Assembly: GCA_003676145.1 (NCBI GenBank)
Contig: NAUB01000021.1
Span: 124,001-188,000, forward strand
From: a gamma proteobacterium symbiont of Stewartia floridana
Lineage (GTDB): Bacteria > Pseudomonadota > Gammaproteobacteria > Chromatiales > Chromatiaceae
Reading direction: 5' to 3'
DNA length: 64,000 nucleotides
The position numbers and the translations under genes were made by a program. How positions within the stretch are numbered: the first letter of the stretch is position 1; the number at the start of each line of letters is the position of its first letter. This document shows, piece after piece, positions 49,257-53,782 of the stretch. The notes below the pieces were generated by a model. The model was not told where the DNA came from. It made no database searches and saw nothing but the letters and a program-made list of their open reading frames with translations.

Positions 49257-51782
49257 ATGTGGTCAAAATTTTGGAATAGATATAGAGACCAGTTCAATCA
49301 GGCGCCCGACCGGGAGTCTGAGCAGTCGATTGTCAGATTGATCGTCGCTCTGGTGATGTGTCTGTATTTTCTCTACATCTATCTGTTCATGCCCTCAGAG
49401 AGAGCGACGTCACTGCTGCTTTTTGTACTGTTCTGCACCTTCTGCAGCTTGATTGTCATCATGGTCATCGCCTGGAAGCCCCAGGCCTATCGTATTCGCC
49501 GCACAGTCACGATGTCGTTTGATGTCAGCATGATAACTCTGGCTATGTGGATTGGTGGTGAGAGCACCTCCATGCTTTATGTTCTCTATCTGTGGATCAG
49601 TCTGGGAAATGGGTTCCGCTTTGGTACTCCATCCCTCTATTTTACAAGTGCGCTTTCCACATTAGGATTTGCTTCAGTGCTGTTGATCAGCGACTTTTGG
49701 AAACAGCAACCTGTTCTGGGTATTGGACTGTTACTCGGGTTGTTGATTACAACACTCTATGTTGCGCTATTACTGTTGCGGATAGAGCGTGAAAAAAAGC
49801 GTGCTGAAGCATCGAGCAAGGCAAAGAGTCGTTTCCTGGCCAACATGAGTCACGAAATACGCACCCCCCTGAATGGTGTGGTCGGGATGACCGACCTGCT
49901 TGCGAGAACACCGATGGGATTGGAGCAACGAGAGATCATGTCGACCATCCAGGCATCTGCGGAGACACTGCTCAATCTAATCGAGGAGATTCTCGATTTT
50001 TCCAAGATTGAGGCAGGCAAGGTTGAAGTAAGGCTTGCTGACCAGGACCTGTCCGAGTTGACGGATAGTGTGATATCGATGATGAAGCCGACAGCCGATA
50101 CCAAAGGTATCGAGCTGAACTGCTGGATAGACCTGGATATCTCTCCGGTAATCAAAACCGACCCCAAGCTACTTCGGCAGATACTGATCAATCTGCTGAA
50201 CAACGCGATCAAATTCACCGACCAGGGCGGTATCGTGCTGAAGGTGACGCCTTACACCTCAGGGGAAGGCGAAGATCGCGTTCCTAGATTGATGTTTGAA
50301 GTCATAGACACAGGTATCGGTATTTCTGAGACTCAGCAAAAACGAATTTTCGAATGGTTTGAACAAGGGGATGATTCCGCAACCCGTCGCTACACTGGCA
50401 GCGGCCTCGGTACAACGATTACCAAACAGTTGGTCGAGTTATTGGACGGGACCATCGGGCTGGAGAGCCGTTTGGGGGAAGGCAGTCGGTTCTGGTTTCA
50501 GATACCAGCCATTACCAGTGACAACCCCATTGACGTAGAACGCTTTCAGGACGCCAGGGTGTTATTGTTCACCGACCTCCTGTCAGAAAAGCAGGATCTA
50601 TTGGACGGATTGCAGGAGTGGCAGTTGGATGTAAACGTCTACACAAACCTTTCGGAAGGGTTTCTGGAGTTGCTCAATGCCGTTAAGGTTAAGGAACCCT
50701 ATGACATTGCAATACTGGATGAGACTCATAGTGATCTCCCGGATGAGGAGTTGGTGCATACCATTCGTGCTGAACAAAGCCTGGATGATCTTGAGTTGGT
50801 TTGTGTTACCGATTACTCGGCAAATCTTCAGAATGAGAACCGATTGTGTCATGAAGGCTTCAGTGCGGTGGTCACCACGCCGATTACACCGGAGAAGGTA
50901 CGCCATGTTCTACAATATGCCTTAAAGCGCAAATCCAGCTCTAATTTACCACCCAGGATTTTCACCTCTGCTGAACATAGCATTGCCAAACATGCCCGTA
51001 TCCTGCTTGCAGAGGATAATCCGATCAATCAAAAGGTAGTGAAAAAAATCCTTGAGCTACAAGGGCACCAGATTGAGGTGGTCAGTCATGGACAGGATGC
51101 CATTGATTTACTGAAAAAAGAGACCTTTGATCTGGCAATACTTGACCTGCAAATGCCCGATATTGGGGGGATCGATATTATTAAAGCCTATCGCTTGATG
51201 GAAAAGCAGGAGCCCGCCATACCCTTCATCATTCTTACCGCAAATGCCACTCGGGAAGCGGCGGAAGAGTGCGAGGCGGTCGGTGTCGAAGCCTATCTCA
51301 CCAAACCTGTCAGGTCTGCGCATCTGTTGGATGTGGTTAAAGAGATCCTGGGAGGGGACGCCACTGAAGTGATAACCGACACCGTCATCGATCTTCCGAT
51401 TCGTGCAGCCAATCAGGAAAAGAGTGGAAGAATTCTGGATGTGGACACACTGAAAGGTCTCGAGTCGTTGAGTAAGGATCCACATTTCATGTCGCACTTG
51501 GCAGATAGTTTTCTGCATGATTCTGAAGCGTTAATGGGCACAATGCGTGATGCAATCGAGTTGCATGACGCAAGAAGATTTAAGGATTGTGCCCATGCCT
51601 TGGCCGACAACGCCTCAGGTATCGGGGCCTACTCCTTGATGACGATTTGTGCTTCAGCTTCGCGCATTGAACCGTCCGGGCTGAAACAGCAAGGTATTAA
51701 GCAGATGACTCAGATCTCTACAACCTATAGCTTAACCTGTCAGGCGTTGCGTCACTATCTGAATACCAAGAACCCTCAATAG
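49257..51782 (+). CDS. RpfC-like hybrid sensor histidine kinase
   Basis: This is an 841-residue hybrid kinase. The N-terminal membrane domain (about 22-175) resembles the DSF sensor RpfC, especially YVLYLWISLGNGFRFG. It is followed by HisKA with the phospho-site His199 (FLANMSHEIRTPLNG) and an HATPase domain (NLLNNAIKFTDQGG, DTGIGI, GSGLGTTI). A degenerate receiver-like domain (Asp488 in AILDE) precedes a canonical receiver (ILLAEDNP, acceptor Asp630 in AILDLQMPD). A C-terminal HPt domain has His780 (CAHALADNASGIGA). It differs from classical RpfC by the extra receiver. A convergent RpfG-like gene is likely its partner; no rpfF is in the window. Confidence 0.9.
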   Translation: MWSKFWNRYRDQFNQAPDRESEQSIVRLIVALVMCLYFLYIYLFMPSERATSLLLFVLFCTFCSLIVIMVIAWKPQAYRIRRTVTMSFDVSMITLAMWIGGESTSMLYVLYLWISLGNGFRFGTPSLYFTSALSTLGFASVLLISDFWKQQPVLGIGLLLGLLITTLYVALLLLRIEREKKRAEASSKAKSRFLANMSHEIRTPLNGVVGMTDLLARTPMGLEQREIMSTIQASAETLLNLIEEILDFSKIEAGKVEVRLADQDLSELTDSVISMMKPTADTKGIELNCWIDLDISPVIKTDPKLLRQILINLLNNAIKFTDQGGIVLKVTPYTSGEGEDRVPRLMFEVIDTGIGISETQQKRIFEWFEQGDDSATRRYTGSGLGTTITKQLVELLDGTIGLESRLGEGSRFWFQIPAITSDNPIDVERFQDARVLLFTDLLSEKQDLLDGLQEWQLDVNVYTNLSEGFLELLNAVKVKEPYDIAILDETHSDLPDEELVHTIRAEQSLDDLELVCVTDYSANLQNENRLCHEGFSAVVTTPITPEKVRHVLQYALKRKSSSNLPPRIFTSAEHSIAKHARILLAEDNPINQKVVKKILELQGHQIEVVSHGQDAIDLLKKETFDLAILDLQMPDIGGIDIIKAYRLMEKQEPAIPFIILTANATREAAEECEAVGVEAYLTKPVRSAHLLDVVKEILGGDATEVITDTVIDLPIRAANQEKSGRILDVDTLKGLESLSKDPHFMSHLADSFLHDSEALMGTMRDAIELHDARRFKDCAHALADNASGIGAYSLMTICASASRIEPSGLKQQGIKQMTQISTTYSLTCQALRHYLNTKNPQ

Positions 51783-51862: not shown

Positions 51863-53782
51863 CTATTTGGAGGGGTTGCTGCTTGGTTCTGATTGAATGG
51901 CTGATGCTCTTTGCGATAGATAGTGCGCATAAGCATGCAAGGTCAGATTGAAGGTCTGCTGCAATTCACTGAGCAGGTCTGATCCCTTATATTCAAATTC
52001 CCGGGCGGAGAGCTTTGAGGCCTGTTGACTGAGTTCGTAGAGTAGTACGGCTCCCAGTTGACCTGCACTATCCAGGAGTATTTGGGCCTGATCAAGAAAA
52101 TTACCGAGCTGACGCTGGGCTACAGCGCGCTCCATCTCACGCAAAATAGAGCGGCCTTCGGATTCGAATATCTTGAACAGTTCATTGATGAATGAGATGC
52201 CGCTGTCCAGTTTTTCCAGTCTCAGCAGGGTCATGTGATCAAGCAGCATGGCATCCTGAATTTTGTTGTTTTTAAACTGTATAGGATCCGTTTTGCGTGA
52301 GACATAGGTCAAATTCTGCAAATCACCCTTATCGAGTGCGGCAAGAATGGAGAGGAGCACCTCTTGTGGTGTGACCGGTTTAAACAGGCAGATATCCACC
52401 CCGATGCTTTGGCAAAGATTGAGGGTTTCCGGGTTCTCTTCATCTTCCACAAAGATAAAGGGAACCCACTGTTTGTACGGGGTGGTAAATCGATGTAGCT
52501 TGACTACCTGAGTACCGCTCATGACAGGCAGTTGCAGATTGATTATGGCTAAATCAAAAAAGTGCTCTTCAAGGGCGTCCAGCGCTTGATCGCCGTTATC
52601 AACCAAATGAATGTTATAGCCCGCCTGAGTCAAGGCGTGGCTGAGGGAATCCCGCTCATGTGAAGGTGTATCTGCCAGTAAAATCTCTTTTTGGCGGGTG
52701 TAGGCCTGCTTGGTGGTACGATGCTTAACCAGGCTTACAACATTGTCACAGGAGGCGTATGTCTTGTTGTCGTAACTGATGATGCTGAACAGTTGCTCTT
52801 TGGTCCATGGGGATTCGAGTAGCGTGTGGTAGCCCGCCCGCAACAATCTGTGCGCATACTTTTCATTGTAAAAAGATGTTTGAATGCAGATCAGTCTCAC
52901 ATCATCAAGTAGTGATTCATTCTTGATCAGGCGTGCCAATGAGAGAGGCTCAATATCCAGATTTTCACCATCGACAATGAGGGATGAGTAGGGGGTGAAG
53001 ACCTCTCCCTGACTGCGAGAGAGCATGTGCTTGAATGCCTGCAGGCTGTTGTTGCAGGTTGTTGTTTCATGCCCCCAATCGAACAGTTGGCGGGAGAGAA
53101 GGGCTGTAGTGCTCTTGTTACGGGACAATATCAATATGCGCTGAATATCGGGTTTTGCAGGCTGAGCGGTAAACCGTTGTGCCACTGCAGGTGATTCAGC
53201 CTGTTTTGCGGGCTCTTCTTCCAGTTGAGGCAGTATGGGTAGTTTCTCTGTGTCCTGCTTATCCTGTTTCGATGCGCCATATCTGTGAATGGATACAAGG
53301 GCAGGGGGTAACAGCGCAAGAACACTCAGTAGCAACGCTTGCAGCAACTCCATTTGCTGTGCCAGATGCAGTGTGGTGGTCAGCATCGTAAACGCTGATC
53401 CAATTCCCAGCCAGAGATAGGATCTGCCAAAAAAACGTGATGCAAAAATCAATACACTGCTGAGAGGCAACAGTAGAAGCGCCGAACCGCCCGCAAAGGT
53501 GATCAGACCGAGAAAGAGCTGATCGAGAATGATTGATGAACTGCGTTTAATTGAGCTGAAGGAGTAGAGACTTTTATAGTGTTCAATAAAACGCAGCAGC
53601 AGGAATTGACAGGCCAATACCAGTGTCATGAGGACAACCTGCGTCGATGCAGACCACAGATAGGTCAGAGTCAGGCCAATAAATGCGACAAAACTGACGA
53701 ATAAGCTCAGGCTGTAATAGACCTGATCACTCTCATGTGAGGTGGTATCAGGTCTCTGCGGCGTTTCTGTTTGCTCGTTCAA
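51863..53782 (-). CDS. RpfC-like membrane protein without kinase core or phosphotransfer residues
   Basis: This 639-residue protein has an N-terminal membrane domain of about five or six helices (about 22-165). Two receiver-like domains and an HPt-like domain follow, but there is no HisKA or HATPase. In the second receiver the acceptor Asp is Asn415 (LAIINLQLPVMSG), while the Lys of the LFKPVTP motif is kept. In the HPt region the phospho-His is replaced by Gln567 (FLDQAQILLDSAGQLGA, compare the neighbouring kinase's CAHALADNASGIGA). The first receiver (ILILSRNKS) lacks the acidic pocket. It starts with TTG, overlapping the HD-GYP gene by four bases (TTGA). It is probably a non-enzymatic regulator or scaffold of the RpfC/RpfG pathway. 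Confidence 0.82.
   Translation of the reverse strand: MNEQTETPQRPDTTSHESDQVYYSLSLFVSFVAFIGLTLTYLWSASTQVVLMTLVLACQFLLLRFIEHYKSLYSFSSIKRSSSIILDQLFLGLITFAGGSALLLLPLSSVLIFASRFFGRSYLWLGIGSAFTMLTTTLHLAQQMELLQALLLSVLALLPPALVSIHRYGASKQDKQDTEKLPILPQLEEEPAKQAESPAVAQRFTAQPAKPDIQRILILSRNKSTTALLSRQLFDWGHETTTCNNSLQAFKHMLSRSQGEVFTPYSSLIVDGENLDIEPLSLARLIKNESLLDDVRLICIQTSFYNEKYAHRLLRAGYHTLLESPWTKEQLFSIISYDNKTYASCDNVVSLVKHRTTKQAYTRQKEILLADTPSHERDSLSHALTQAGYNIHLVDNGDQALDALEEHFFDLAIINLQLPVMSGTQVVKLHRFTTPYKQWVPFIFVEDEENPETLNLCQSIGVDICLFKPVTPQEVLLSILAALDKGDLQNLTYVSRKTDPIQFKNNKIQDAMLLDHMTLLRLEKLDSGISFINELFKIFESEGRSILREMERAVAQRQLGNFLDQAQILLDSAGQLGAVLLYELSQQASKLSAREFEYKGSDLLSELQQTFNLTLHAYAHYLSQRASAIQSEPSSNPSK

Follow-up and report, generated by a model that had tools for sequence, protein, structure and literature searches.

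RpfC, the hybrid kinase that senses DSF in Xanthomonas, represses DSF synthesis through binding of its receiver (REC) to the DSF synthase RpfF, independently of the phosphorelay, as set out in excerpts of two reviews (PMC3749722, PMC4504480). RpfH, encoded in the same rpfGHC operon, resembles only the sensory input domain of RpfC and has no apparent regulatory role in the excerpts of PMC3749722 and PMC3744752. The chemistry of the HPt domain is informed by work on Ypd1: in the accessible sections of PMC6341664, the residue four positions after the phosphorylatable histidine (H+4) is Gly, Ser or Ala in approximately 98% of HPt sequences, and the H+4 Gly-to-Glu variant G68E of Ypd1 has a phospho-acceptance of 0.3% of wild type and a relay of 0.08%. 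This variant folds and binds its receiver without substantial change (excerpts of PMC6341664).

Here we describe a kinase-less RpfC-like protein (KL) encoded directly after an rpfG-like gene in a 64,000-nucleotide stretch of DNA (the window) from a symbiont of Stewartia floridana, the genus being Candidatus Thiodiazotropha. The sequence evidence leads us to give about an even chance to the reading that KL is an ancient derivative of an RpfC-type kinase, which would work by binding rather than by phosphotransfer and would hold RpfG at the membrane. No description of a KL-type protein was found in the accessible text of the literature on RpfC, RpfG, RpfH or Thiodiazotropha, including PMC3749722, PMC4504480, PMC3744752, PMC5651002, PMC8895600 and PMC6341664.

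Gene order of the rpfG-KL locus

An initial sequence-only reading had proposed an intact 639-codon frame opening at a TTG that overlaps the stop of the RpfG-like gene. Both points are borne out on the minus strand (Table 1), and Candidatus Thiodiazotropha records, including L009 and L010, hold full-length copies of KL that are 98% and 91% identical as well as a partial copy that is 94% identical. That reading had also called for a search for the same overlap in other genomes. In the family sample, rpfG lies directly upstream of KL on the same strand in 49 of the 51 loci, the other two being cut by contig ends, and the 4-nt overlap is seen in 14 of these 49, all within the window's genus. The receiver Asp and the HHE..GYP motifs are present in 48 of the 49 RpfG neighbours; the one exception is a fragment, and eight further RpfG neighbours do not match a strict HDIGKIG pattern. 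KL stays next to rpfG even in loci from which the kinase and the RpfF-like gene have moved away. The window genome encodes one more full-length protein of the REC-HD-GYP type, at 38% identity.

Table 1. Features of the rpfG-KL locus in window coordinates
Feature	Position	Strand	Basis or remark
KL, kinase-less RpfC-like protein, 639 aa, TTG start	51863..53782	minus	intact frame; full-length copies in relatives
Overlap (TTGA) between the rpfG-like stop and the KL start	53779..53782	minus	4 bp
RpfG-like REC (Asp54) and HD-GYP regulator, 352 aa	53779..54837	minus	Pfam Response_reg, HD_5; motifs
Full-length RpfC-like hybrid kinase, 841 aa, convergent to KL	49257..51782	plus	HisKA, HATPase, receiver, weak Hpt (Pfam)
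KL N-terminal membrane domain, residues 1-170	53273..53782	minus	4 hydrophobic segments, crude hydropathy count
KL REC1 pseudo-receiver, residues 213-345; Asp271 at 52970-52972	52748..53146	minus	AF2 (beta-alpha)5 and alignment
KL REC2 receiver fold, residues 362-485; Asn415 at 52538-52540; incomplete catalytic set	52328..52699	minus	Pfam, PDB matches
KL HPt-like domain, residues 513-625; Gln567 at 52082-52084; Asp571 (H+4) at 52070-52072	51908..52246	minus	alignment, relatives' Pfam, AF2

The cluster is often longer in relatives, where further genes encode a methyltransferase of the CMAS type or a radical SAM protein, as well as a ketoacyl synthase, a full-length kinase and a crotonase resembling RpfF. 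Six loci (L051, L059, L062, L064, L069 and L076) show the order rpfG-KL-(methyltransferase or radical SAM)-ketoacyl synthase-kinase-RpfF-like, with parts that vary. The ketoacyl synthase and the CMAS-type enzyme hint at a modified fatty-acid signal, and RpfF structures are among the best PDB matches of the crotonase. Upstream of rpfG, a protein of approximately 265 residues with two receiver domains (Pfam on L045) is encoded at L045:10560-11351 and at 24 other loci; such an ORF is listed, one per locus, in 26 loci, including a contig-end kinase piece (L154). The idea that this gene is a lost part of the window locus was rejected, as tblastn of three copies (E<=1) matched only the known receivers of the window and one 30-residue stretch at chance level. 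We note that in genus g10 the slot after rpfG holds KL in one genome (L090, G064) and a full kinase in another (L092, G010), with the same two-receiver gene upstream.

Domains of KL

The absence of HisKA and HATPase from KL, as first read from the sequence, is confirmed: the window protein has no match to either in Pfam at E<=1, whereas the neighbouring kinase has both, and the family listings of 15 KL members (E<=0.1) contain neither. The sole domain above the Pfam cut-off is a receiver (Response_reg, E 2.7e-16). The region corresponds to REC2, the best PDB match of which is the REC of RpfC (3m6m_D; profile E 5.3e-25, TM-score 0.90). An AF2 model of residues 205-639, calculated from three KL and three kinase rows (window, L009 and L010), consists of two (beta-alpha)5 folds, as expected for receivers, followed by five helices; with a mean pLDDT of 65.7 and a pTM of 0.38, the domain arrangement is not fixed by the model. 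A full-length AF2 model from four near-identical rows was set aside (mean pLDDT 37.1).

The first reading would have fallen had the C-terminal domain proved unlike an HPt. The five-helix secondary structure of the model fits an HPt, and the structure-library rows shown (VIA-align) span model residues 159-283 only, none of them covering the HPt part. Pfam Hpt matches are found in 10 of 15 KL homologues and not in the window KL alone, and a collinear BLASTP alignment relates KL to the neighbouring kinase with 26% identity over 438 columns. Similarly, a profile of eight KL N-termini matches ten kinase sensor domains (prob 99.1, E 5.6e-19), whereas the window N-terminus alone gives no match (prob 1.2). 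Both assignments are therefore made because the relatives match, with the collinear kinase alignment in addition for the HPt. The two receiver-like folds of the initial reading gain support from the model, its HPt-like fold gains support from the model and from relatives, but not from Pfam in the window protein, and its RpfC-style membrane domain is supported by the KL profile, but not by the window sequence alone. The membrane part itself is variable: many genera have just two predicted helices there, and four loci have none, one of them (L096) being cut by a contig end.

Phospho-site residues of KL and its kinase neighbours

The proposed replacements are confirmed by alignment, in which Asn415 and Gln567 of KL lie opposite Asp630 and His780 of the neighbouring kinase, itself found to have His199, Asp630 and His780 as described. 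The broader statement that every phosphotransfer residue has been lost goes too far, because Asp271 of REC1 and Lys468 of REC2 are kept. In REC2 of the window KL, the set comprises D371, T372, N415 and K468, the first two occupying positions that are E-D in the kinases, and a complete catalytic set is found in 0 of 32 KL rows versus 55 of 55 kinase rows. Conservation in 90% or more of the kinases but in fewer than 70% of the KLs is seen in 16 columns; 13 of these fall in REC2, among them the positions of the acidic pair, of the acceptor and of the lysine. The acceptor position of REC1 is Asp in 48 of the 51 KLs; the N-terminal acidic pair is absent in KLs and in most aligned kinases, so REC1 looks like an old pseudo-receiver in both.

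Residue counts at REC1, the HPt His and H+4 cover all 51 KL and 79 kinase ORFs, with gaps counted apart. The H+4 residue of the HPt is Asp in all 48 readable KLs, the remaining three of 51 having a gap, and the HPt His is kept in 24 of the 48. His together with a small H+4 residue occurs in 0 of 32 KL rows versus 48 of 55 kinase rows. Among 49 kinases outside the genus, H+4 is Gly in 47, Ser in one and a gap in one, and second-locus kinases of the genus have Gly in 10 of 12 (gap in the other two). The window-type kinases of the genus carry Asp in 15 of 18 rows; the three with Gly (L057, L058 and L149) come from the very genomes in which Gly replaces the HPt His of KL. In the window, the neighbouring kinase unexpectedly has Asp784 at H+4 (51606-51608) and no Lys at H+3, with H780 kept, and its HPt may therefore be non-relaying though annotated as intact. 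Neither this Asp nor Asp571 of KL figured in the initial reading. A second RpfC-like kinase of the same genome (G000:C6:79574-83270, L103) has the normal motif of His and Gly at H+4 and adjoins an RpfF-like crotonase that is 39% identical to the RpfF-like protein of the family; no HD-GYP gene is found in the 14-kb stretch around it.

Since a charged H+4 residue abolishes transfer by Ypd1 but not binding, KLs appear incapable of relay, including those that retain the His, yet they can probably still dock. That Asp in particular blocks relay is inferred by analogy, the available substitution table for Ypd1 (PMC6341664) containing no Asp. These residues bear directly on a role for KL as an RcsD-like intermediate, the HPt of which would carry phosphate from the kinase receiver to RpfG. 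RcsD is a membrane protein that carries an HPt but no kinase (excerpt of PMC5651002), and retention of the His in half of the readable KLs would suit such a role, but in the window it is excluded by Gln567, and the invariant H+4 Asp is a change of the class that abolished Ypd1 relay in the excerpted PMC6341664. We regard an RcsD-like function as highly improbable. The retained His also counts against a pure binding role, which need not predict it.

Distribution and descent

ORFs were taken from stretches around matches and then sorted into KLs and kinases. Matches at E<=1e-15, full kinases included, occur in 83 of 194 family genomes, and kinase-less ORFs are found in 51 of 210 family genomes and 12 of 61 genera, with genus g47 represented by a frame that a contig end truncates. 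The window's genus contributes 21 genomes with KL; one member (G197) has no match at E<=1e-40. In a class sample of 369 genomes, the best match outside the family scores 395.6 bits, within the 382-680 bits of uncut KL rows, so score alone cannot separate all KLs. The out-of-family matches inspected are full kinases, kinase fragments or contig-end pieces, and four short frames among them (G499, G563, G506 and G257) have kinase-core matches or lie at a contig edge; G401, G265 and G419 fell outside this inspection. Loss of the kinase core is family-wide rather than local. The three out-of-family loci inspected (L158-L160) each group rpfG with a full kinase and an RpfF-like gene; at L158:2992-4137, a 381-residue protein matching only the kinase membrane domain is encoded between rpfG and the full kinase, as is RpfH in Xanthomonas.

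Disrupted frames in related strains had been named as evidence that would count against a maintained function. They are found in only two of the 51 loci, L056 (G099) and L144 (G200). G200 also has a fragmentary rpfG frame and a split kinase, such that decay and assembly error are indistinguishable.

On the REC1-REC2-HPt region, KLs form one clade with an SH-aLRT of 99 in a quick tree (87 rows, 32 KL; 19 named rows omitted, being near-copies and the short KLs L068 and L090) and a UFBoot/SH-aLRT of 100/99 in a careful tree (72 rows, 25 KL), which drops 15 more rows: four long-branched ones, including the KLs L096 and L086, and 11 near-copies. A 97/86 branch of the careful tree places KLs, rpfG-adjacent kinases and the window kinase on one side and, on the other, 21 kinases linked to the RpfF-like genes of relatives together with the second-locus kinases; the sister of the KL clade is weakly placed (84/35). 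A single KL clade on the rpfG-adjacent side of the tree suggests that loss of the kinase core probably happened a single time, well before the genus Thiodiazotropha arose. On the quick tree, three changes within the KL rows are needed to explain the receiver Asp, and likewise three for the HPt His.

Selection on KL

Whole-gene dN/dS of KL lies between 0.086 and 0.311 in 15 of 16 pairs, one pair being undefined. The comparison with the active kinase, proposed at the outset as a check, places KL above the kinase in 9 of the 13 pairs with both values; RpfG is lower, at 0.014-0.088 in 15 of 16 pairs. Within the gene, REC1, REC2 and HPt of the six Thiodiazotropha pairs with Gln for the HPt His yield 18 dN/dS values, of which 15 fall below 0.1. 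The pooled pN/pS of these pairs is 0.105 for REC1, 0.057 for REC2 and 0.058 for HPt, compared with 0.25 for the N-terminus and 0.51 for the linker; nine pairs that keep His give 0.18, 0.12 and 0.17 for the three domains. By these ratios, REC1, REC2 and HPt of the Thiodiazotropha KL are under purifying selection, and the low values of the Gln pairs indicate that loss of the His generally did not relax the HPt, the exception being the single pair with Gly at this position (HPt pN/pS 0.25). Outside the genus, mean HPt identity is 0.351 for KLs versus 0.384 for kinases (KL higher in 33 of 153 pairs), and REC2 identity is 0.399 versus 0.612.

The suggestion of selection for a role outside the phosphorelay is supported by this purifying selection, the single clade, the rpfG adjacency and the rarity of broken frames. 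A decaying gene kept by chance could account for the two interrupted loci, for the repeated loss of catalytic residues and for dN/dS values somewhat above those of the kinase, but hardly for one clade across 12 genera with the low ratios given above; we disfavour decay and hold it to be extremely improbable.

Candidate partners of KL

As read from its sequence, KL is without a kinase core, has a broken REC2 set and an HPt that lacks the His and bears Asp at H+4, and is predicted to be translated immediately after rpfG. We suggest that the dead HPt binds the receiver of RpfG, the HD-GYP regulator made together with KL. In this way KL would hold or occupy RpfG at the membrane, thereby competing with or replacing phosphotransfer from full RpfC kinases. 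Occupancy by KL would then set the c-di-GMP phosphodiesterase output of RpfG, and the N-terminal membrane part would serve mainly as a tether, perhaps with residual sensing. We infer RpfG as the target because rpfG is the partner that stays beside KL. Two non-enzymatic roles had been offered initially, ligand binding and sequestering of the HD-GYP regulator; the latter fits better, given that the C-terminal domains are under tighter constraint than the membrane part, which in other genera is reduced to two predicted helices or none. Several observations speak against docking: the HPt of KLs outside the genus is less conserved than that of kinases, the HPt of the Gly pair has an elevated pN/pS, whole-gene dN/dS mostly exceeds that of the kinase, and the pTM of the AF2 model is low; in addition, genes that lie side by side need not encode binding partners.

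The closest structural precedent of REC2, an RpfF-binding receiver, hints at a different partner. In the main rival explanation, REC2 of KL would bind RpfF and hold back signal synthesis, in the manner described for the Xanthomonas RpfC receiver, which acts independently of the phosphorelay in the excerpted reviews (PMC3749722, PMC4504480). The best PDB relative of REC2 was crystallised with RpfF, and an RpfF-like gene is present in 37 of 42 KL genomes, often in the same cluster. However, the RpfF-like gene of the window genome lies at C6 beside another kinase, away from KL, and REC2 of KLs outside the genus diverges faster than kinase REC2. In addition, no RpfF-like protein (E<=1e-25) is found in five of the 42 genomes, of which G173, G184 and G188 are 98-99% complete and G025 and G047 are 84% and 81% complete; the persistence of KL in these genomes favours docking on RpfG. 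We consider RpfF an unlikely partner.

Alternatively, KL could join the full kinase in a heterodimer or heterocomplex, as a sensor subunit without catalytic activity that adjusts kinase activity in response to a membrane ligand. The relationship of the KL N-terminus, via relatives, to the RpfC-type sensor domain is compatible with such pairing, as is the finding that the kinase is the convergent neighbour of KL in g1 loci long enough to show it, except in G136, where the two lie on separate contigs (L044, L089). Such pairing would have to do without the HisKA dimerisation domain and through a weakly constrained membrane part that is missing in some loci, and the kinase lineage beside KL varies between genera in the careful tree. 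This makes a sensor subunit quite improbable.

A wider version of the docking model, tentative and rather doubtful, is that the whole lineage turned the RpfC-RpfG phosphorelay into a binding switch. The H+4 Asp of KL would lock onto the RpfG receiver, the change would have spread to the neighbouring kinase of Thiodiazotropha, where most copies carry it (15/18), and the locus would control RpfG mainly by occupancy, with separate kinases elsewhere keeping a normal HPt.

Comparison with known systems

If KL holds RpfG by means of a dead HPt, parts of a phosphorelay can be retained in evolution for docking alone. The breakdown of c-di-GMP in these sulfur-oxidising symbionts would then depend on protein occupancy and not on phosphate flow. 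The kinase next to KL carries a related warning, namely that an annotated HPt with its His may not relay. KL further provides, across many natural sequences, a counterpart to the H+4 laboratory mutants of Ypd1. Both have a non-small H+4 residue, which in the case of G68E leaves folding and receiver binding in place and removes transfer (excerpts of PMC6341664); the Ypd1 variants were engineered, whereas the charged H+4 of KL is natural in every readable copy.

KL shares with RpfC the membrane-(kinase)-REC-HPt order, minus the kinase core, a REC2 that has the REC of RpfC as its best PDB relative, and the linkage to rpfG, here upstream. In contrast to RpfC, it has no HisKA or HATPase, its REC2 and HPt chemistry is lost, neither an intact receiver set nor a phosphorylatable HPt His being present, and it has an extra REC1, as do the kinases of the family. 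RpfH is similar in being a kinase-less RpfC relative that occurs with rpfG and has no phosphorylatable His (excerpts of PMC3749722, PMC4504480). KL differs from this sensor-domain-only protein in keeping REC1-REC2-HPt, which are its most constrained parts. RcsD of the Rcs phosphorelay is likewise a kinase-inactive membrane protein with an HPt that works alongside a separate hybrid kinase and response regulator, but RcsD-HPt accepts and relays phosphate (excerpts of PMC5651002), whereas in the HPt of KL the His is absent and H+4 is Asp. KL is therefore distinct in defining features from RpfC, RpfH and RcsD, and appears to act as a pseudo-phosphorelay protein.
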